NCBI GenBank assembly: GCA_021234155.1
Contig: JAJEKV010000070.1
Span: 7,055,889-7,119,888, forward strand
Reading direction: 5' to 3'
From: Isoetes taiwanensis
Taxonomy: Eukaryota; Streptophyta; Lycopodiopsida; Isoetales; Isoetaceae
Length of the DNA stretch: 64,000 bases
In this document: in pieces, positions 36,693-50,625 of the stretch
How positions within the stretch are numbered: the first letter of the stretch is position 1
Layout: every line of letters begins with the position of its first letter
Translations under genes and position numbers: made by a program
Notes under the pieces: model-generated
Seen by the model: the letters and a program-made list of their open reading frames with translations, nothing else
Told to the model about the DNA's origin: nothing
Databases searched by the model: none

Positions 36693-39116
36693 CTTCTTCT
36701 TCGATTTATCTTCACAAAGATTACTTTCCACAACATACAAAACTAGTTTATATGAATGGATTTCATTCAATGCAAAGACGACAGACACACATATCCACCC
36801 TGGTGTTACCCAGGCCACAACCACACCAACTGCATAAATTCATCTTATTGTAGATAATCAAATATAACGTATAATGTAAAAACATAGTATTCAAGATTAA
36901 GTTCAAATATACAGAGCATACTCAATATATCGTTTCAAATATTCATATTCCTTTAGAAATATCCATCTACATTATGCCAGTAACATATTTCCATACTTAA
37001 TATATCGTTTCGAATTATAAATTTCGAATCTGTTCCAAATATTCAGCATAATAATCTCATATTCATTATAAGTAACTCACAAGTGTTTGTCCTTTTCAGT
37101 TCTTGTATCATTCCCATTGGAAACATCCCCTCAATATCAGCTCCAAATATTGTTGTACAAATAGGTAGCAGTCCACGTCTGGCTGCTTTATATGTCCAAG
37201 ATATGACAAAAACATCTAGGAGATGTAGTCTTGGTTACCTGCACCCAAACAGACCAACATTAGCATATTAATGGTAACGAGGAGAGGGGTGACAGGTAAG
37301 CTGTAAAACTACATGGCTCATCGCCCTTCACCTAAAGTTTAGTCATATTCAATGTAGAATATGATCTATTGCTATTCTTGTATTCTTAATCAAGCTAAAA
37401 TATAAGTTAAAGATATGCTGCCTATGTAAGCATCCTCACAAGTATAACATTTCAGCATATTATCATACAACATATTATATCCAAGTCACTAAACATGACC
37501 AAATCAGATTTAAAGCCAAAATATTTTAACAAACAAGGTGCTTTTAGCAGCTGCCCTCCATGTGCTAATGAACTAAACATTAATTCAGTACTAAAAATCA
37601 GAAAATAGAACTGCTATAACTGTTTCAAACGGATATAGATGTGATATTTTCACATACAATCAGCATTTGAGCATGGAAATGGAAGTAACATTATAATGTT
37701 AGCATTCTTTTATCTCTCATAAGCACATTCAAAGTACTTGAGCTGCAATATGAAGATCATGCACAAAGCCATAAAATTATGCAAATCCATGTGCGGCACT
37801 ATAAAAACAAGAGCAAGAAGAAAGCAAATGCAACCAACTAACAATTCCTATTACAAAAGCCATCGCAAAACAAGCAACACCTAGGACATGTCTAAGCACC
37901 CAAATCTAGCTGCAGCAAGAAACTACTCTATAACCCTTAACCTACCAAAGCAAATGCTAAGATAGAGCATATTAATAATCTAAAACCAAGGCTTGACACT
38001 GCCATAAATTCCTATAACATTAGGAAAAACCTAGACTAAACCACTCCTATAATGCAACCCCCTGAAATAAGCTCCTATGGGCAGACCTAAGCAAATGCAT
38101 ACAACACCCCTTTCAGCAATTTCATAATGCAGGATTAACTCCCAAATGTTTATTTTTCGCAAAAGAGTAGTTCAGAGCATAATAAAAACCTGATATTTGT
38201 CGCTCCTTCCATATCTTAGGAACTTCTGTCTCCTTGAAATAGATCTTAAACAAATGAAACCGGTCTATTTATCTTTGTTGCATTGCTAAAATGCATTGTG
38301 GAATGGAAACGGCAGCCCAATATACCATATCCGGCTACCTACAGACTGGTATAGAATCGGCAACTCTTCATGCCATTTTCGGTTGCATACAGACGATATT
38401 TCTGCTATTAAGATCGGCTCCTCCTTATGAACGGATAAGCAACATTTGCCTTTTTGTATTTGGAAGCGCTGGACACATTCGGCTAGATGCCATATCCTCC
38501 GCTCCACTTTTTGGTTTTGCAAAACCTAACCTTATGTTTTACGGAAAAACTCCTTACCTAGTCATATAACATGACATTTTCGAAACTATTCTTATGCTCC
38601 AATGTAACCATGTGGACACGTAGAAAACTATTCCATCTTGAATAATAAATGGGGTGCCATTGCCATAATAACAAATAGGTACCATCACCTAATAATAATT
38701 AATAGGTACCACCACCTTTAAATGATATTGGTCCCATCATCTTTAAAAAGTATAGGTGCCATCATCTTTAAATAAACTAGGTAGAATCATATATAAGAGC
38801 AATACAAATTTCCCAATCACATCCTCAAGATACATGTGGCCCACATGCCATTGCCTTTGAACATCTCATAGTAATTGTCTAGATATTACCTTAGACAATT
38901 GGACTCTAGAAAATCCCAAGCAGTCAATCCCTTAGGGCTTGTTTACGCATAAACATTCACTGACAGTAATGGCACATGCATGCCCCCAAGAAAATGCTAT
39001 GTTTTTTGCAATCTATATAACATGCAAAAATCAATCTTTTTCTTAAAAAATTATTCATGTAACCAATTTCAAGCCCATAATACTATATAGGCATTAAGAG
39101 TCTAAGAAAAAATCAA
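36693..39116 (+). repeat. TTC-bounded repeat unit 6 (pair Y, second copy)
   Basis: Partner of unit 5, with the same order of landmarks and the same end (AAAAAATCAATC) before the final TTC tract. CAG/CTG sites are kept here where unit 5 differs (for example 37167, 37303, 37416, 37454, 37548). Confidence 0.85.
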
Positions 39117-39253
39117 TCTTCTTCTTCTTCTTCTTCTTCTTCTTCTTCTTCTTCTTCTTCTTCTTCTTCTTCTTCTTCTTCTTCTTCTTCTTCTTCTTCT
39201 TCTTCTTCTTCTTCTTCTTCTTCTTCTTCTTCTTCTTCTTCTTCTTCTTCTTC
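39117..39253 (+). repeat. (TTC)n tract abutting the CACTA ORF
   Basis: About 45 TTC repeats run directly into the first CACTA exon. In that exon's frame the tract reads TCT (Ser) and meets no stop, so a poly-serine extension is formally possible. Confidence 0.95.
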
Positions 39254-39905
39254 ACATGGAGTCTTGTCAAATTCATCGTCCTCGTTGTCTTCATCATCTC
39301 ATCAACCAAGTAGGAAAAGAGCAAGACGAGACCCAAGCATAGCTTTCTATCTTCAACGGCGAACTTGTTGGTGCAACAAATGCAAAGGCAAGATTAGTCG
39401 TTCCTATCAGATTCGTCAACAACACGAAGCAAGATTTGGTCTTTGTCGAACTCGGCCAAGCCAACTTCATGAAGGACGCGACCTTGAACAAGATGAAAAA
39501 TGTGTAAGTTGGCTCCTTTAAATGATTTCATTTTACTACCTATTTGCTTAGATATATATTATAAATGTTTGCCTATCTTCTAAGTATTTGCATCATAATT
39601 TAATATTTGCTTTATATTATGTAAATTAGATCTACGATGAAATATGTCCTTTTTCTTTTGTTATCATTATTTGTAGAATAGAATAAGAATAAAATAGATT
39701 TTTCTCATTTTTTATTCTATTCTATTTGGTGCATGTAGTCCTCACATGAAGCACCTAGCTCACACGATGCATTCATTGGTGAGGATGTGATTAATGATAC
39801 CATCAAAAATTTCTTTCCAATAAATGACCAAGCCAATGATAGCAAAAAAGATGATGGTGCACATGCTGGCAATGTAAATGACAACTGTATTGTATTGTAT
39901 TGATC
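39254..39905 (+). pseudogene. CACTA transposase, N-terminal exons
   Basis: Exon A (to 39503) has a Ser-rich start, then a basic patch (RKRARR) and a Cys motif CWCNKCKGK followed by RSYQIRQQH, typical of the N-terminus of TNP2-like transposases. It ends at a good donor, TGT|GTAAGT. Exon B (39739 onward, after a GCATGTAG acceptor) continues in frame with an acidic stretch beginning SSHEAPSSHDAF. It is cut by the LINE 3' end near 39905. The remaining transposase resumes at 50730, so in its present form the gene is disrupted. Confidence 0.75.
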
Positions 39906-40744
39906 ATGCTCCGTCGAACCTTGAAGGTTATGGAGCCATAATTACAGAGTATTTACTTTTATCAATAAATCTCGGTGTGATTCTACCGATTTAAGATATG
40001 GACCTAAACTTGATGGATCTATATCGAACAGCATATATAGATTGTTTGCATCTATGTGAAATTTTGCTCTAATGTCTTGGTATGCTGAACAATCCAATAA
40101 GACGTGCTGCTCATCTTCAACCTCGTGCCAGTCACATAAGGTACATATTCTTTCTTCTCATGCCACAGAAGCCCATCTCCCTGTCTCAATATTTAAATGA
40201 TGTGAGCATGTTCTATAGCGTGCTATTATTTTTCTCAAGAACAAGGGAATGTGCGATCTTACATACTGCTGATCCGTATATGTGAGCATCGGATTTATTT
40301 CAGTGGAATAAAAGGTCATTCTGGTACCTTTTTTTAGCCATATTCGTTCCAGTGCCTTTTGTTGTATGACATCTCTAGCACCAGGCTTCGGTGTCGAGCC
40401 AATTTCGCTAGATCTATCCCCCAAATCCCGCCCAATTCAAGACATCCTTATACCACCACGAGTCCATAGAATGCAGCAATGCTTGTTTTGAAAGCCTCTC
40501 ATCATTCTGCTGCCACACCCGATTTACAAAGTTTATAGTCTGGAAGAGGGCTTCTGCTTCTAGCGGAATTAACCCTGTTTCTGCCAATAAGATTGCATAT
40601 GGTGTTTGCGCCTTAACGCCCAGCTCCTCCCTTATGAATAGCTTCAATACTTGCTCTATCTGTTGCCAATGCTTGCTTGTTGTGCCAGGCCCCCAAATCG
40701 GTGCTCCATAGAGCACTACTGTCTGCACCAAAGTTTTAAATAAG
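39905..40744 (-). pseudogene. LINE ORF2, C-terminal part
   Basis: Read from 40744 downward the frame opens LFKTLVQTVVLYGAPIWGP, the thumb-region signature after the LINE reverse-transcriptase domain, and continues to 40414. The frame then shifts (40424-40158). Near 40130-40085 it carries CDWHEVEDEQHVLLDC, the C-terminal Cys/His motif of plant LINEs. The 3' end is a short AATAC repeat (about 39890-39905) lying against CACTA exon B. The N-terminal part is at 48941-50625; the two were separated by the 8.2-kb element. Confidence 0.85.
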
Positions 40745-41318
40745 CATTAGAAAAAAAGTGGGGTCTCGTGGTGTCCCCATAAGAAATGACTTATTTTATT
40801 TTTACCTCATCTTACTTTTTTTTTAGTTGGTGTTTTCAAGGGGCAACCAAAATTAATTCGAATTTGGAGATATCTATATGTCCAATGTATTTTTGCCACG
40901 TTGCCACATAAAATCCTTAAGCAAATCCACGGGAAATTCTCACGAAGAACGAAACCCTTCCTGCTCGTGTGCTTAGATTGTGCATTCGTGTTGCAGATTC
41001 AGGCTCCCCTTTGCCTTCGAATTTATTGCTACCAAGATACAAAGGTTCGTGATCCAAGGAATGCGGTTATTTCTCTCCAGGTATCATTCTTTAGGTAAGT
41101 CAGATTTGCCCTCCGGTTCTAGTTTGGGGATTGATCTCTAAGTTTGAATTTCATTTCCCACACACAAGAATTTGAATTTTTGAATATGTTTTGAGCCCTA
41201 AGATTTGAATTCAAATCTCCCACATTGAGCCCTAAGATTTGAATTCAAATTTCCCACAAATCATCAGATATATAACAGTGATGGATCCCAATTGTAAGAT
41301 TTTTGGCCTGTTCTTACC

Positions 41319-43803
41319 ATGGTTCAACTTAGAATTATCCTTCCTTCAGCAGAATATGGAAAAGCAAGCACTTCTACAGCTGGGCAGCAAGGAAAGAAGA
41401 TCGATTTGAATGCTTTGCGAATGAGTGGAGCTAAAAATTATGACATTTGGGCTGTAGGAGAACTGTACCCACGAAATCCTGCGACAGGAAAGCATCCTGT
41501 TTTCACTTGTTTAATAGGGCTTGTCAAATTCGTGTGTGAAGGGCGGGCAGGGCTACTTGGCTACTGCGAGAGCATGGCATTCCATAACATGGAATTGACC
41601 ATTCACATTAATAGACTTTCATATTCTTTGCAGCAGAAAGAAGTGGAGTCTTGTAATTTGAAAAAGGAAATTGAAGAAAAGGGAAAGTTAATTCATCAAT
41701 TGAAAAAGAGAGCTTTACAATTGGAACAAGATGTTGGAATGCTGGAGACTGTTGTCAAACAAGCAGAGAATGACAGGAATTCAGCAGCAAATAATGCCAA
41801 GCAAAATAAGGCACAGGTCTGCATGCTACAAAGGAGGTTAGATAGATTAAAAAAAAACAGCTTTTGGGCTTAGAGAAAGGAAGAGGAAGGTGAAGCCAAT
41901 CAATGAGTTAAATATTCGATGTGGGGCTTATCGTAGGAGAATATATGCCATCAAGCAAGTATTGGAGACAAAGAAAAGCAATGATGGTGTACGAGATAAT
42001 GTTGTAAAATTGTAAGGAGCATTGCTTCAAAGGAGGAGATTTTAGCGATGCTAAATGCACCAGGAAACAATGACTTAAGAAAGTCTGTTATTAACATGGT
42101 TGTTAGTGAAGTATGCTCTACAATAGATGTTGACAAGGTGCAAAGTATTTGTGATTCGGCTGGAATAAGCAATGCAGCTTATAGATTGCTATGCAAGCCA
42201 TTTTATGATGCATTAAAAACATTTGGAACCAATAAAGTAATTGTTCCAAGGCCACATTATGTGAATAAAGTAAGAACAAGAAGGAACATTATGATCGGAG
42301 AAATTTTAGGAGGAATGCACTCCATAAATTGTAGTCCACCGAGCTCAAGCGAGCTGCAAGGACCTCAAATAGGTACGAAGACAACTAGATCTAAAAATGG
42401 TAAGAGTACTAGATCTAGAAAAATTTATGATAACACTAATAATTCTGTTATGATCAGTCTTAATGAAAAAAATAACTTATGGTTTGACCTTGAAAATGTC
42501 TTGAAATTTATGGTGGTGTTTTACAATTTACATGAGGATGATGTTGATGGGCAGCTGCAAGTGTGCTTGAAGCTTGATGAAATGGAGCTTACACACAAAG
42601 TCAAGTATGAGAGAGTATCATTGACGTTAATGAACATGGCATTCTCCCCCGATTATGAAAAGCAAAAGCTGTTGAAGAAGAAAAAGAGAGAGGCTGATTG
42701 GTTTTCCGTCCAATCGGAAGACCATACGTGGTGGTTAGGGCTTTTCCAAGTTCGAAAAGAGAATTTTGAAGTGTTAAAGTGGGTGTTTGATCAAACGAAC
42801 ATTCCCACGCTAATTGACAGCTATAATCATGGTGAGAAATTGATTGTTGAAGGGTTTGGGTCATTTTGTGTTCACTTCCATATGGCTTCCGATCTGAAAA
42901 CAGAGAAGGCCATGTATGGAATTGCTTCCTCAGGGGCAAAGACTACCAAGATGTGCTTATATTGCTACGAGACATTGAAAGACACAAGCACTGGTCGTGC
43001 AAAAAGTACTTTGAGGTGTGACCAAGGTCTTCCACCTACTCGGCATACAAAAGATACAGAATTCAGGCCAATACTACCAATTCCATTGGACAGGGTACAT
43101 TTTTGTACACTTCATGCTTTAGTTAGGATAGTTGAAAAAATGATTTTTCATTCAATTATTTGTTTGGAACATTAGGGATGAGAAAAGAACGAAAACAAGG
43201 AATCGAAATGTGTTGAGAAAGTTTTATCCATTCTTGGGTTTACATGGCGGATGTGTTACATTAGAAGTAGACACCAAAAGGTCAGTTGATGGAAGAAGTT
43301 CTATTCCAGCAAAGGTATCCATTGGAGGTGAGAAGGCAAAGCGTTTCTTATGCCAAAGTGATGATAAGAAAGGCTTGTATGATTTTGGTAAGAAGTTGAT
43401 AGATGCAGAATTAGACAAGACCAACAATGCATCCACAAGAAAACGGATTGCATGGAATACTTTGTCCGACCTAAACGTGCTGCTACAAAAGAGCTATTTT
43501 ACAGCAGAGGACAAGCGTAATTTTCGAAAGGATCACCGCATGCATTCACAAAGGCATACATTGATGCATGGGGAGAAAGCGAAGTTACTCATTACATACA
43601 TATAATTTATGCTCATGGACCTTGGTTTGCGGATAAATATGGAAGCTTAGCCATATGGAACACCCAAGGCATGGAAAAGTCGCACAAGCAGGCTAAGATG
43701 GCTTTCAATCGGAAAACTCAAATGTGGTGGAGGCTATGATTCTCGCCAATCCAATCCATTGCCGCAAATGGGACAATGGTTTTATCGAGGAGTGCTTAAG
43801 TAG
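41319..43803 (+). pseudogene. DDE-type transposase with frameshifts
   Basis: Four frame segments read as one protein of about 800 residues. The N-terminal part (41319-41873) has a Lys/Glu/Gln-rich coiled coil. A shift leads to an Arg-rich segment with CGAYRRRIYAIKQVL (41880-42017). The main segment (42048-43175) has a candidate first acidic residue in HMASDLKTEKAMYG, a CLYC zinc-type pair just after it, and a second in PLDRVHFCTLHALVRI. After a one-base shift near 43150, 43176-43605 continues. The last parts hold WNTQGMEKSHKQAK, a candidate catalytic Glu, then GGGYDSRQSNPLPQMGQW before TAG at 43801. This layout (D, CxxC, D-x-LHA, QGxEK, NPL) is that of RNase H-fold transposases, but I cannot name the family. 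An internal TAA lies at about 42015. Confidence 0.65.
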
Positions 43804-44887
43804 ACACGAGGAGAATTTGGCAAGGCGCATCTCCAACAGTTCATAATGCACTTGCGTAAGCTATGAAGAAACGAAGACAAAGAGCTTGGAGAAATTCAAA
43901 GCTAACAACAAAGATGATAGAATGGAGAAGGAAACGACGAAGGATTGGAAGCAAATACTCTTCCATTATTCGATCATGCCAACACCTTCAATGGGTAAGC
44001 ACTTGTTAGTTTGAGTTTGAATTTACTTTAGTTGCATGTGTAAAGTGTAATGACATAGCAGAGTAAAGTATATTTGCAAAAATATAGAAGAGTTAACACG
44101 CTGGTACATTTTTGCAGAGATAGTAAAGAAGCAAGGATGTGCGTGTTCAAAGGCATGGCACGCTTCTTGTAATATATGATATATAATGGTCTGTAATATA
44201 TATATATGTAACTAGTAGAGGTCCTGTAATATATGAGCAGAGGTCTATGAAACCTCCTCAGAAGCTATAAGCGAGGTCTCAGAGTAAACGTTTTGTATTG
44301 AGCTTGAACCGCTTTCAACTATTATGCCTCCGGATTTTCGAGAGAATCACTACTATTTTCAATGAGGTCTCTTCCAACTATATGCAGAGAATCACAAAAA
44401 CAAAGAATACTTTTTTTTTCTCAATTGGAAAGAATTTGAAAGAATTTGAAGCTTAGTGCTTAGTGTGCAGGTTCAGTGCTTGGCACGTTGATTAACAGGG
44501 CTTAGTGCCCTGTTAATTTCAAGCTTAGTGCTTAGTGTGCTTGAATGTGCAGGTTTAGTGCTTGGCACGTTAATTGTATTGGGTTTAAAAATTTTGAAGC
44601 CATTGATGTCTTCGAGTCTTATGTGACCGCCGTATTACACGACATTCTTTACAAACTTGCTCCACCTTCAATTTAAACGTGTTCCTCTTTTGCCCTTCAC
44701 AAAAAACAGCAATACTTTTCTTTTCTCATAGTGGAAAGAATTTGAAAGAATTTGAAGCTTAGAACTTGAGGGAAAGTTGCGCCTTTTATGAGCTTTTTAT
44801 GAGCATTTGTGAGCCTTCTATGATCTCGTACTAAATTTGATAGATAAATATGAGCTTGTGAATCCTGAAGTTTACACAGAATAATAC
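43804..44887. other. non-coding interior of the 8.2-kb element
   Basis: No gene is seen. The word GCTTAGTGCTTAGTGTGC and its neighbour GTGCTTGGCACGTT recur at 44450-44575, and GAAAGAATTTGAAAGAATTT recurs at 44428 and 44738. Confidence 0.45.
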
Positions 44888-45200
44888 AATACATTGTGAA
44901 TCTGGTTTTTACAGAAAAATACCATACATAGTCTATTATATTATATTGGAAGCCTGTTTTTACAAAAAGTCGTGCATGCATAAGCCTTGCACTCTTGTGA
45001 GTCTGGATCTTACAGAAAGATACCATACATAGCCTATTATATTATATTGGAAGCCTGTTTTTACAAAAAGTCGTGCATGCATAAGCCTTGCACTCTTGTG
45101 AATCTGGTTCTTACAGAAACTACCATACATAGCCTACTACATTAAGTTGGAAGACTGTTTTTACAAGAAACCTCGTGCATGCAAAAGCCCTACACGTTTT
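44888..45200. repeat. 100-bp tandem repeat, 3 copies
   Basis: AAGCCTGTTTTTACAAAAAG recurs at about 44950, 45051 and 45151, with CGTGCATGCATAAGCCTTGC between copies. It lies inside the 8.2-kb element, downstream of the 91-codon ORF. Confidence 0.9.
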
Positions 45201-45259
45201 TACACCTGTTTTTTTAAGAAACATCAAAACAGAATACATAGAGCCAAATCTGCAGCCAA

Positions 45260-45535
45260 TTATCTTTGCATGTTATAGCCTGGAGGGGGCATCTGAAGAT
45301 GGACTCGAAGGAGGATGCCATCTGCCTCCATGTCCATCCATAGAAGACGTTGATCACTAGGATTCACCCGATCAAGCCAGTTTTGAACTTTTTCACTAAC
45401 ACTTGCTCCTTGCTCTTTCAGTCGATTCACCTCGTAACAGCTAAAGGTCGCCACGAAAGTCATCTCCATGCCTGGATGGCTGGAAGCTGATGATTCTGCC
45501 TGAGCCCTTCGGGCAGTGACCTTGGTCCTGGCCAT
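45260..45535 (-). CDS. 91-codon ORF, N-terminus resembles a histone tail
   Basis: From an ATG in good context (ACAAATGGCC, at 45535) the frame encodes 91 residues beginning MARTKVTARRAQAES, then a Ser-rich linker, then a compact segment with CYEVNRLKEQG, KVQNWLDRV and RLLWMDMEADG. The frame stays open upstream, but that part is low-complexity (repeated GGAAGAAGCCGAGGGG). The first ten residues resemble the histone H3 tail; nothing after them does. It lies between the transposase and the three-exon gene in the 8.2-kb element. Function is unknown, and it could be one exon of a longer gene. Confidence 0.4.
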   Translation of the reverse strand: MARTKVTARRAQAESSASSHPGMEMTFVATFSCYEVNRLKEQGASVSEKVQNWLDRVNPSDQRLLWMDMEADGILLRVHLQMPPPGYNMQR

Positions 45536-45659
45536 TTGTTTGCAGGGAGGAAAAGAAGCCGAGGGGAAGAAAGGATGAAGGAAGTCGGAATGGATGAAGT
45601 CGGAAAGGAAGAAGCCGAGGGGAAGAATGGATGAAGGAAGCAACGCAAGCAACGCCCAA

Positions 45660-47064
45660 TATAAAGTGATTTCATAGTCCCATAATTTCGTCGTCCCATA
45701 ATTTCGTCATCCCTGAAATTTTCGTCATCCCATGATCATGAGGTATGATAATCTTCCATTAGGTATGATAAGGAGGTATGATAAGCTTCCATTAGACCAT
45801 GCACTTGTAGTTTTTAATCTTAGAGAACCTTACCTCACGTTTTCAAAGTTATTGTTTGTTTGGGGAAGACTTGTTTGTGATTGCAAATTTTGGGATAGAA
45901 TTGTTGCGAAATTTTATGTGGACCATGGTGTTGAACTTGGGAAAAATTGTTCATAATTGCAATTGAGGATATGGATTGCTGCAGACCTTTATGGTGGCGA
46001 AAACTAAAGTGGTTGGACATCCTAAACACAAAGAGAAAACATTGGCCCTAAGCCAAATACAATAACATTTCTAATGAAATGTCTTTGGAATGCAATGGTT
46101 GCCTGGAATTATAGGACATAAAAAGGACCTACGAGCTATTGAACTATTTAAGAATTATATTGATCCAAACAAAATCACTTCATGTCAATCATTGTCAGCA
46201 TGTTATATTCAAACGACATTACCATGCTTCCAGATTTGGCATATAAATCAATAATGCACTTTTAAAATTAAGAATCTTCTTGTTTCCAAATAAAAACTTA
46301 CCCATGATGTTGTACTAGGAAATGTCCCTTTACACCCGAGAATTTGATAACCATGAGTAAATACATTATGATGGAAAGTATGAGAACTTAGATTATACAT
46401 TAGGTTTTGTTCTGAGATTTTATACCAAGGGCTTACCATGTGCTTACAAAGTGCTTACCAAGTGGTTACCAAGTGGTAATATATGATTAAAAACTAAGCC
46501 TCAATAAGCCCTCTAATATGTTGGTATATCAACCATTATAAGCAAAGCCTTACCTAAGTATATCAACCATTATAAGCAAGGCTACATGGAGGAATATCAG
46601 ATGTTTCGTATTCTCTTCTATTTAATTCTTTACCTGAATCTTGAACACTATTTGATGCTATGCAATCTGGAAATGTGACCCCAAATAATGTTTCATGGTT
46701 CTGAATTCATGTTTCTCTTTCAATAATTATCATGCTGAAAATGGTCACTGCTGTGGCTGTTCTTCAACTGGGAACAGATAAATTTTCATCTCTTTTCATA
46801 TCTCTATTACATTTTAAATTAGCCGACTATTAGACTGAAAAGATGCCAGAGTGTTATTGCAGTAGCCGTGAACCATAGGGTTAGAATACATATTGCTGTT
46901 GTGTTCTCTTTTAATGCTGAAAATCCAATTAAAGGCCAATGTCGCACAAAGGACCTGCCTGAGATATTTCCTTATAGACAGATTGCCCCTCGAAGGGCCA
47001 CATTGCATGCAAAATAGGTTCAATTAATAACCAGATCCAATCTGCATGCAAAAGACACTGAATT
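45660..47064. other. non-coding interior of the 8.2-kb element
   Basis: No gene is seen. Short local repeats include GGTATGATAA (45740-45790), TTACCAAGTGG (46440-46470) and TATCAACCATTATAAGCAA (46527 and 46560). Confidence 0.45.
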
Positions 47065-48834
47065 CTAAAGTGTGAAAAGTAAAGGACAAAACCAATTTAA
47101 ACAAATGAATGAGACACCAGAGATTGAACCTGACAAAACCAAAAGCTCTCCTTTTTTTTTAACTTCTAACATTCTTATGCTTAACTTCTGCTGAGGTTTA
47201 CATTCCTTACATAGAACAGAGCATTCCCTACGATAGCCAACCTTTCTATCATCCAAATAAAATTGGAAGTCACCATAAATTTTAAAAGTGTTGAGATATT
47301 CTCTGCATTCAAGTAGCGACCAATCCTCTTCCACATTTAGCACCCTGTTAGGAGCATTGTCACAAAAAATAGTTAGTTCCATAAGTGGCGAGCTATTGCC
47401 ATGGTCTTCTACTACTCTCCACTGCCAATGGCCTTTCTCCTTTACTAGCTTCCTCCTCTCAACAAAAAAATTGCAATATAAAAGTTGTTTCGACAATCTG
47501 TACCTGCAAAAGAATGATTTATAAATATGTAACATCTACAAGTTATGAAAGAAAAATCAGAAAACTACCTGAAGACAAATGTATTTGTTGAAGGTGCACA
47601 TTCAGTGAGTTGCTCTCCTGTTTCGTGCTCCCTTCGCTTCCATATGCCAGAAAATATTTTTTCTAGGCTGGGGATTGGAACATCACGGACTGTATACGTT
47701 TGTGGAGCAACCTTAATTGATTTTTCAAACTGAAACAAATAGGAAAAAATATTGATTGGCAGAAACAACTTAAATGCACATCTAATTCCTCCACGTTCCC
47801 TCAGATTTCTATAAACTTCCCTTCCTAATTGCTCTTGATAGGCAGTGAGCAATTTTTGATCAGAGAACTCAGCTGCCATTGTTGTCAAAGCTGGTAAATC
47901 AATTTCTGCCAGCTTCCCTACACCTTTTGAAGATAAACTATAATGATATGTATGAAACCAGATGCCCCTGTCTCTCAAGCTCCTCTTGGAAGAGTCTCCA
48001 AATAACAAGTCACCTACTTTGAAATGGTAGACTTCAAGCACACCTGTTATACTCTTGGCTGAAACAACATCTATAAAATCTGAGGAACAAAGGCAATTAC
48101 ATGAGAGTGTAGGAAAAGACCATTTCTTTGCAATGCCCTCCTTTGCAATCGCTTGTGAATCGTATGCATGCTCCACAAGAATTTCCAATACTGTCTTACA
48201 GCCAGGACCAAATATAAATTCTTTCACACGTCCCTTCCAATGATTTGAACTGTCTTTTATTTTATGCTTTGATACACCATGATAACCAGAGGTTTTAGGC
48301 ATCATAGTTACCCAAGATCCAATTGAGACATCAAGCTCTTCCCATTCATCTTCATCGTTCTTCTTATTGCACAAAAATACTGTCTTTGCTCCAGATCTTA
48401 CATCTGCAACACAAAATCAAATACACTCAAGACTAAATAAGAACCCAGAAGATGATTCAAAAAGAACCTGGCAATACAATTCATTCCAGAAAACCTATTT
48501 CATCAAACTCACCGCTGTTGCAAAGAACACTAATCAAGCAGGTCTCTTCTGAGCAATTTGGATGCCGCCCAAGACCAGGCCGACTACGAAAATCAGTATG
48601 TTCAAAGTGGGAAAATCCAAACCTAAACCGAATGTTAGGTTGATTATCGTAGTGATTCGAGTTGTGTGTCTTTCGAGAATGGTATTTTCGAGCACAATTA
48701 CTTCCCACAACTATAATAAATGAAAGAGGCTCGATGTGGTGTTTCCAATTTGAAGTAAATGAGAAGTATCTTGAGAAAATATTAAACGTATCTTCATAGG
48801 AGATTTTTGGCTCGATATGGTGCCACATAGACAT
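47065..48834 (-). CDS. three-exon gene of unknown function inside the 8.2-kb element
   Basis: The exons are 48834-48513, 48403-47569 and 47503-47065, 531 codons plus stop. Both introns have canonical ends (G|GTGAGT...TTGCAG, then CAG|GTAGTT...TTGCAG). The phases agree exactly: exon 1 ends in phase 1, exon 2 in phase 2, and joining them keeps an open frame through CNSDVRSGAKTVF and STNTFVFRYRLSKQ. The protein has Cys/His-rich patches in exon 1 (HPNCSEETC, SNCARKYHSRK) and scattered Cys in exon 3 (ECSVLCKEC). I see no transmembrane segment or signal peptide. I recognise no family. ATG at 48834 is the first in frame, 86 bp inside the element's right TIR. The correct splicing frame argues for a real gene, either captured cargo or a second transposon gene. 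Confidence 0.6.
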
Positions 48835-48940
48835 GCCTTTTTAACACACAACTTGTTTCTTATTGGTGAAAAGGAAAAGCTGATGTGGAATTTTTGAATT
48901 TTTGAATGGGATGCAAGATGACTCCATTTTTTCTCTAATG

Positions 48941-50625
48941 AGTTTTTTGAGCCCCCATTGCTGAAGAGATGCATTATGACACTTCGAAAGCATGCTGAAA
49001 AGAGCCGCCTTGCCTCCTGTTACACGTCTTTTGATGCATTCTGTCCATGAGTACTTGGCTGAAAAATCAATGCCCAAATACTTAAAGCATTCTACTGTCT
49101 CGAGCTCTTCTCCTTGATAGAAGAAAGTTGGCCTGTCATAAATGCCTACAACCATGATTTTTGATTTTGTCAAATTAACCTGCATATGCCTTGCTTTGCA
49201 AAAGAGTGCCACTCTGTCGAGATGTGCCTACAGCCCTTCCTTTTTATCCACAATGGGGTAGAAGCATGTTAGGGTGTCCCTTAAAAAGTATTATTTAGTG
49301 ACTAAAAAAGTACCTAAAAAGGTACCCAGGACTGGGTACTGGGTACCTGTGTAATATCTCAATAAAAGTACATTCTAGAACTTTTATATATATTTTACTC
49401 TCCGGTAGCATTATTTTTATCTTAACTTTGAATATTAATGCGTCCTTGACTTTTATTTTGGACTTTTGTACTAGTTTTAATGAAAATAAAAATGAGAAAG
49501 TACCCAGTTCTGAAGTACCTAGTGTATGTACTTTTGCAGGTTCCAAAAGTGGTACACCCTAACATGCTTTTACCCAATGAGTACTACGTCATCAGCATAT
49601 AGTAGTAACTGGACTACATAATCTCCCAACCGGGTACCTACCCTGTTATTCTCTTTTAGCCATGCATCAAGTTCATCAATATACAATCCGAAGAGAGTAG
49701 GAGATAATGGACATCCTTGACGGACTCCTATGGTGCTGTGAATTTCCAAGTCCATATCCCTGGATAGTTTCACTTTTACTTCCGCATATAGTTTGGATAC
49801 TGCCCCTCTGATTGATTGAGGGATATTCAACTGCTCCATTCTTTCTCCTAAATCTTTTCTGGGCACTTTATCGAATGCTTTTGTAAAATCTATGAATCCC
49901 AGAAACAATGCATTCCTTGGCCTTTTAGCCCTTTCAATCAAGACCCTCAATGCAAGAGCATGGTCTAATGTGCTATGGTTCTGCCTGAAACCAGCCTGGT
50001 ACAGTGATCTCAAGCCATGTTCTTCTGTATATGCGCTCAACTTTTTCTCCAAGAGTGATCCTAACAACTTGGAAAAAGTGCTTCCTATTAGGATGGTCCT
50101 ATAATTACTTGCATTCATTTTGTCTCCTGATTTATGGATCGGGTGGACCCTATTTAGTTTCCAAGCCTCTGGAAGACCATTCTTTACTGCCTGATTCAGC
50201 ATGTCTGTTACTATTTGCAATGTCTTCTTGCTGCTCCATTTCAATAACTCTATACATAGGCCCTCCAGATCGGGTGCCTTCCCATTAGCCATGTGTTTAA
50301 GATCAAAACTGATATCTTCTACTGTGAAGATGTCCTCTTTACATTCTACTGCTGCCATGCTGTTTGCTTCTGGGCAATTATATACTGAATTAACTAGTTG
50401 TGCAAGGTCATCCATATTTAGACTATGTTGAGCTGGTTTCTTCTGGATCGTATTCCAAAAGGCTTTGGGATTTTCCGATAGCCTTTTACTTAAATCTTCC
50501 TGTTTCTTATGCATCATAAGAAACATATAGGGAAAAGGCATCATATCTCCAAGATGAGGCAAGCACGCCATTATTCCCAAATGCTCGTGTTTCTCGCCTT
50601 GCCACTTGTATACTTATTCTAAATC
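48941..50625 (-). pseudogene. LINE ORF2, reverse-transcriptase part, 5'-truncated
   Basis: The frame runs from about 50620 (YKWQGEKHEHLGIMACL) through NPKAFWNTI, the palm motif FIDFTKAFDKVPR, GVRQGCPLSPTLFGLYIDEL and the catalytic YADDVVLIG. A 310-bp MITE follows; downstream of it the frame resumes with AHLDRVALFCKARHMQVNL, FKYLGIDFSAKYSWTECIKR and LQQWGLKKL, which ends at the 8.2-kb element. One in-frame TAG remains just after the MITE. The endonuclease domain is missing, as in most LINE copies. It inserted into the CACTA element, and the rest is at 39905-40744. Confidence 0.9.
49261..49570. mobile_element. 310-bp MITE with TA target site, inside the LINE
   Basis: The ends are GAAGCATGTTAGGGTGT and, inverted, AAAGCATGTTAGGGTGT, flanked by TA on each side (49259-49260 and 49571-49572). 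The TA duplication and short TIR point to the Tc1/mariner (Stowaway-like) group. Leaving one TA makes the LINE frame continuous from VVLIGY to PIVDKKEG. The interior is AT-rich with repeated GTACCCAG-type words and no ORF. Confidence 0.92.

Follow-up and report, generated by a model that had tools for sequence, protein, structure and literature searches.

A decayed terminal inverted repeat transposon in Isoetes taiwanensis belongs to an abundant family with an unusual transposase, a conserved convergent partner gene and apparent insertion without a fixed target-site duplication

General Transib termini begin with CAC, as a heptamer like that of a recombination signal sequence (RSS), and CACTA/EnSpm (CMC) elements combine CACTA-type ends with a short fixed target-site duplication. 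Spy, of the PHIS superfamily, is given in the available part of its description as a DNA transposon without target-site duplication whose insertions lie inside AAATTT and whose one encoded transposase is a relative of those of PIF/Harbinger and ISL2EU (PMC4482050). For RAG-type elements, the available part of another account describes for ProtoRAG a RAG1-like and a RAG2-like gene in convergent orientation, as well as 5-bp duplications for an Aureococcus element and one element end that reads CACACCCAAACCT (PMC9435367). A figure legend of that account names Transib proteins under plant names including Juglans sigillata, Capsicum chinense and Hordeum vulgare (PMC9435367), so that a protein of RAG/Transib type under a plant name is no novelty in itself. 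Here we analyse a stretch of 64,000 nucleotides from Isoetes taiwanensis (GenBank assembly GCA_021234155.1, contig JAJEKV010000070.1, positions 7,055,889 to 7,119,888 of the forward strand; hereafter the window), in which an element with terminal inverted repeats (TIRs) interrupts a long interspersed nuclear element (LINE). The window copy is a decayed member of a large family of TIR DNA transposons, a real and abundant plant family with an unusual transposase of its own and a conserved partner gene (Table 1).

The two ends of the element, 40745-40765 and the reverse complement of 48920-48940, are identical at 18 of 21 positions. Across the genome searched (1,658,258,908 bases in 1110 contigs), 33 matches were listed for the left 301 bp, the window counted, and 29 of them begin at the first base of the query. 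With at most two mismatches, the 21-base pattern of the terminus is found 533 times (276 + 257), compared with 18 times (10 + 8) for a reversed control. Twenty copies were taken as 10-kb stretches: CATTAG stands at the expected left-end place in 18 (the exceptions are L017 and L026), and in nine both ends are exact and oriented as expected; these nine represent eight sites because L011 and L022 have common flanks. L020 has an inverted right end, and for the remaining ten the right end is truncated, diverged or beyond the fetched stretch.

The transposase gene of the window copy is interrupted by stops and frameshifts. A tblastn search with the L010 protein as query (the 700 aa ahead of its single stop; 84 matches listed from 64 scored of 3984 candidates) gave, among the matches listed, at least 13 genome relatives with stop-free transposase frames of 816-931 codons, eight of which were fetched for alignment. 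The ratio of nonsynonymous to synonymous substitution rates (Ka/Ks) is 0.09-0.16 in six of eight pairs and Ks is saturated in the other two; since Ks exceeds 1 in all six usable pairs, these ratios are rough. Judged by them, the stop-free relatives are under purifying selection. Within the catalytic half, LDEMEL, D-LKTEK, C-x2-C, RVH-x-CTLHA and H-x4-H are invariant in the eight relatives, as is QGMEKSH save in L029. The residue that precedes RVH (LDRVHFCTLHA) is E in six, Q in one and D in two of nine aligned members. It is therefore probably not a catalytic aspartate, and for this reason we propose the D of LDEMEL and the D of ASD as the catalytic aspartates and the E of GMEK as the glutamate. 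L029 has a long open transposase frame and yet a valine at this putative catalytic glutamate, which suggests a recently inactivated or non-catalytic copy.

Among the matches listed for the proteins scanned, none to a Pfam transposase family scored at or above the cut-off. A profile of the whole transposase gave 60 listed matches in the PDB, nearly all of them in its coiled-coil region, and the catalytic half was therefore used alone. The zf-Tnp_2 model (PF13842) matched three of eight members (best E 0.0018); we judged this to be chance because no transposase domain accompanied the match. A Cas12j match of the catalytic profile (E 0.09) was set aside. NCBIfam and PHROGs yielded nothing convincing for the element proteins. 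The peptide patterns fit 14 stretches of the viral collection and 33 of the prokaryote collection, none of which was confirmed as a relative. Among the papers listed on RAG1/Transib in plants, lycophyte DNA transposons and Isoetes transposases, no title or abstract opening describes such a family.

The C-terminal catalytic block of the transposase shows similarity to RAG1. A single-sequence phmmer search of the PDB with the C-terminal piece of L010 gave 16 matches, of which 15 are to RAG1 constructs (E 0.04-0.29 over ~42 ungapped residues), these 15 being variants of few proteins rather than independent matches. The Pfam RAG1 model gave E 0.016 and 13.8 bits for the window piece and E 0.056 and 12 bits for L010, with a cut-off of 25. 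In hhalign, the whole catalytic profile aligned with the RAG1 core at P = 1.7e-4 (0/200 shuffles as good) and the block from H-x4-H to E at P = 2e-5 (0/60 shuffles as good). As a scale, a RAG1 query finds the DNA-mediated transposase 6pqn, which we take to be the Helicoverpa zea Transib, over this region with an E of 0.0056. In RAG1 itself the H-x4-H of this block supplies the zinc histidines and the E is catalytic. By eye, the D1 and D2-CxxC regions stand in the same order as in RAG1.

Several results weigh against this relationship. No RAG1 match in the PDB was obtained with residues 1-700 of L010, and RAG1 was not among the matches listed for the catalytic-half profile. Only one of eight relatives matched Pfam RAG1 (E 0.007). 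In hhalign the D1, D2-CxxC, RVH-CTLH and middle blocks aligned with RAG1 no better than shuffles, so that the link depends on a single block of 42-47 residues; the extreme C-terminal block scored marginally above its 60 shuffles (17.5 vs 16.9), but at a non-corresponding place in RAG1. On balance, the conserved block makes the transposase a probable remote relative of RAG1 and Transib, with which it would share distant descent.

The same block speaks for placing the element in a known, catalogued superfamily, such as Transib, Chapaev/CACTA, Kolobok or hAT, with a divergence too great for Pfam to detect. We consider this unlikely, since no Pfam transposase model scored above its cut-off among the matches listed, and since CATTAG termini combined with an absent duplication fit none of the groups compared, as far as their descriptions were available, Spy excepted for the duplication. 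Our own reading is that of a TIR transposon new at the level of a superfamily, set apart by the Pfam models and the published descriptions of known groups.

On the minus strand, ORF2 (ORF, open reading frame) is convergent with the transposase; its three exons are predicted, with GT-AG introns and a phase continuous over both introns, all read by eye. In the distant family L066, whose transposase is 53% identical, ORF2 is again present: identity is 42% for exon 2 (286 columns, stop-free) and 40% for exon 3 (110 columns). The right end of the L066 element is tentative because its left end was not found. For exon 2, Ka/Ks is 0.19 between the window and L010, on few changes. Selection on the minus-strand genes is less evident from two other sets of values, namely a ratio of 0.67 between the window and L015, likewise on few changes, and ORF3 ratios scattered from 0.06 to 1.58. 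ORF2 has no convincing match in Pfam, NCBIfam, PHROGs or the PDB; its best NCBIfam match (E 0.0023, 18.6 bits vs a cut-off of 96) was taken as chance, and a suspicion by eye that it is BAH-like was dropped as Pfam and the PDB lent it no support. ORF3 starts with MARTKVTARR in the window and MARTKVTARKS in L018, the start in L012 being different; at 64% identity, a relative in L065 starts with MARLKYTAQR. The start, especially that of L018, resembles the histone H3 tail; this likeness may be chance.

The first-pass annotation had described a frameshifted transposase-like protein and two minus-strand genes, all of which are present. Its motif order of D, CxxC, D-x-LHA, QGxEK and NPL holds in part: QGMEK is retained in seven of eight members reaching it, whereas the "D" of D-x-LHA is mostly E and NPL is KPL or RPL in six of the eight members reaching that point. 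It had left the transposase unassigned, with a match to a standard superfamily of different known ends as one result that would refute its suggestion. None was found in the HMM libraries searched, in line with that label, but the C-terminal catalytic block points to RAG1/Transib. The minus-strand genes had been called cargo; extra genes are indeed carried, but because ORF2 is convergent with a transposase of only 53% identity in L066, they look like the element's own. The overall suggestion of a plant DNA-transposon family with extra genes is thus supported by a TIR element that has additional genes and no Pfam transposase above cut-off.

When the two halves of the LINE in the window are joined with nothing added or lost, a single open frame runs over the junction. 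Flanks were compared at 24 elements, of which L022, L047 and L057 were dropped as duplicate sites to leave 21 independent sites; each length of flush direct repeat was tested separately, with the expectation taken from mismatched flank pairs. Repeats of 1 bp occur at six sites (5.3 expected), of 2 bp at two (1.85) and of 3 bp at one (0.5), and none of 5-12 bp is found at the 21 sites. No position within 10 bases of the 21 junctions exceeds 0.15 bits, and no target motif is visible. Empty sites are available for two junctions: the joined flanks of L013 align without a gap, at 397/400, to another position of that locus, and those of L037/L038 align to five window repeats, the junction being gap-free. 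The family therefore appears to insert without a fixed target-site duplication. Points to be set against this are a 4-bp flush match at L037 (one site vs 0.05 expected over 21 sites), a direct repeat of 84 bp (83/84) that directly abuts both ends of L016 (C745:259166-269165), and precise excision, which could in principle be the source of the empty sites. The 4-bp ATTA at L037 is native sequence, because the empty-site repeats span the junction without a gap. Around the L016 repeat no longer tandem array is seen by eye, and no repeat of this type exists in the compared flanks of the other 20 independent sites; we read it as an exceptional event. These results agree with what had been claimed for the window, namely 21-bp inverted termini with 18 matching positions, placed exactly at a break in the LINE frame. 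The genome search and the reading of other target sites that had been suggested gave two-ended copies that stop exactly at the claimed ends, so that the refuting case of copies ending elsewhere did not arise among them, and 21 independent sites without fixed duplication.

Based on these data, we consider it probable that the window holds a decayed TIR transposon whose own Asp-Asp-Glu (DDE)-type transposase recognised CATTAG and joined blunt ends, with ORF2 and perhaps ORF3 as helpers. The transposase, of ~880 aa, is marked by the signature C-x2-C / C-x2-H / H-x4-H / E in what would be a DDE catalytic half of RNase H type, the fold and the acidic residues being those suggested by the conserved motifs. 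It would recognise the CATTAG termini and excise the element in a cut-and-paste pathway, and both ends would then be joined to target phosphates that lie directly opposite each other. Such a zero-bp stagger, if correct, would leave no target-site duplication and no target base lost. ORF2, and perhaps ORF3, would be element-encoded helper proteins.

A somewhat less likely explanation than the catalogued superfamily considered above is a transposase that only excises, the blunt molecule being captured at chromosome breaks by host end joining, with duplications absent or, rarely, long. The absence of a target motif and of a fixed duplication at the 21 sites would suit such capture, as would the single 84-bp flush repeat of L016. 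However, small deletions or filler are the usual outcome of end joining, and for this reason the precision of the junctions counts against it: no base was lost or gained at the two junctions checked against empty sites, and the LINE frame of the window is preserved. A mobile element outside the DDE class, such as a Helitron or Crypton, would also account for the absent duplication, but is highly improbable given the inverted repeats at both exact ends, the RAG1-like block, and the lack, among the matches listed, of a Pfam rolling-circle (Rep/helicase) or tyrosine-recombinase domain in the proteins scanned from a subset of copies.

Table 1 Features of the element and its LINE target, in window positions
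Feature	Position	Strand	Observation
Whole TIR element	40745..48940	+	8196 bp, inside LINE; both exact ends common to 9/20 fetched copies, 8 sites
Left terminal inverted repeat CATTAGAAAAAAAGTGGGGTC	40745..40765	+	18/21 with right end; genome pattern count
Right terminal inverted repeat, reverse complement CATTAGAGAAAAAATGGAGTC	48920..48940	-	End comparison and genome pattern count
Transposase gene, broken	41319..43961	+	Open pieces 41298-41873, 42000-43175, 43144-43605, 43521-43739; similarity runs to ~43961
Catalytic half, first part	42000..43175	+	LDEMEL (proposed D1), ASDLKTEK (proposed D2), CLYC, RVHxCTLHA; conserved in 8 relatives, residue roles putative
RAG1-like block	43521..43739	+	HIIYAH (H-x4-H) and GSLAIWNTQGMEKSHK (proposed catalytic E); Pfam RAG1, phmmer, hhalign with relatives
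ORF2 predicted exon 1	48513..48840	-	Donor GT at 48512; tblastn matches in 10/20 fetched copies, some decayed
ORF2 predicted exon 2	47569..48403	-	Matches in 12/20 fetched copies, some decayed; stop-free relative in distant family L066
ORF2 predicted exon 3	47065..47503	-	Matches in 11/20 fetched copies, some decayed; relative in L066
ORF3, 91 aa, start MARTKVTARRAQ	45260..45535	-	Matches in 10/20 fetched copies, some decayed; L065 relative
LINE target, downstream part in LINE sense	40414..40744	-	Frame joins with 48941-49227
LINE target, upstream part in LINE sense	48941..49227	-	Frame joins with 40414-40744

Within the element, tandem units of ~101 bp occupy 44894-45169. No internal termini of the CATTAG family were found in L025, a copy carrying insertions. 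Elements of ~2.87 kb with ends CATTAGAGAAAATATGGGGTC lie at C35:292181-295050, C35:306754-309629 and C152:90257-93135, the two on C35 having common flanks; they are possibly non-autonomous relatives. Elsewhere in the window, three pairs of facing copies of one foldback-like repeat are seen (1995-2200/2297-2595, 17386-17571/17689-17995 and 58895-59023/59116-59323), and these repeats and the target of the C601 element are related. Beside the LINE, an open frame at 39081-39521 (+) with a long run of serine codons is probably a microsatellite.

Compared by their published descriptions, in the portions available, none of the groups considered has its full definition matched by the element, as tested. 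CACTA/EnSpm (CMC) differ in both their ends and their duplication, neither of which is found here (CATTAG ends; 21 sites). Kolobok, MuDR, hAT and P transposases have a C/DxxH signature between the second D and the last E, according to the descriptions consulted in part, and CTLH is invariant here; the same descriptions give a TTAA duplication for Kolobok, 4-10 bp for MuDR and ~8 bp for hAT and P, whereas the 21 sites show no TTAA duplication, no fixed one of 4-10 bp and none of ~8 bp. The transposase also has no Pfam match to these four groups. Spy, so far as its description was available, shares the lack of a target-site duplication (L016 excepted) but differs in its AAATTT target, no motif being present at our 21 sites, and in its single PIF/ISL2EU-related transposase, as opposed to at least two genes and no Pfam transposase above cut-off. 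Should the present element be a second, unrelated transposase without duplication, such integration would have arisen more than once.

Differences from Transib and RAG-like elements lie in the termini, CATTAG (18 of 20 fetched left ends) in place of a CAC-type end; in the 5-bp duplication, of which no flush match exists at any of 21 independent sites and no trace at two empty sites; and in ORF2, which has no Pfam match to RAG2-type repeats and no Pfam or PDB match supporting RAG2. In common with RAG1, the transposase has an H-x4-H and, equally spaced after it, GS-x2-W and the putative catalytic E; as in RAG1/Transib, a C-x2-C lies upstream of this block. The convergent orientation of ORF2 and the transposase recalls ProtoRAG as set out in the available part of its account. 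It is conceivable, and we advance it tentatively as falling somewhat short of an even chance, that the family is an amplified land-plant superfamily, sister to RAG1/Transib, which has the RAG1 zinc and catalytic block and the convergent two-gene layout and has evolved blunt integration. If the RAG1 likeness reflects descent, the enzyme lineage of antibody-gene assembly gains an abundant plant branch with many stop-free copies, and the long stop-free copies make both blunt integration and RAG1 descent testable at the bench.

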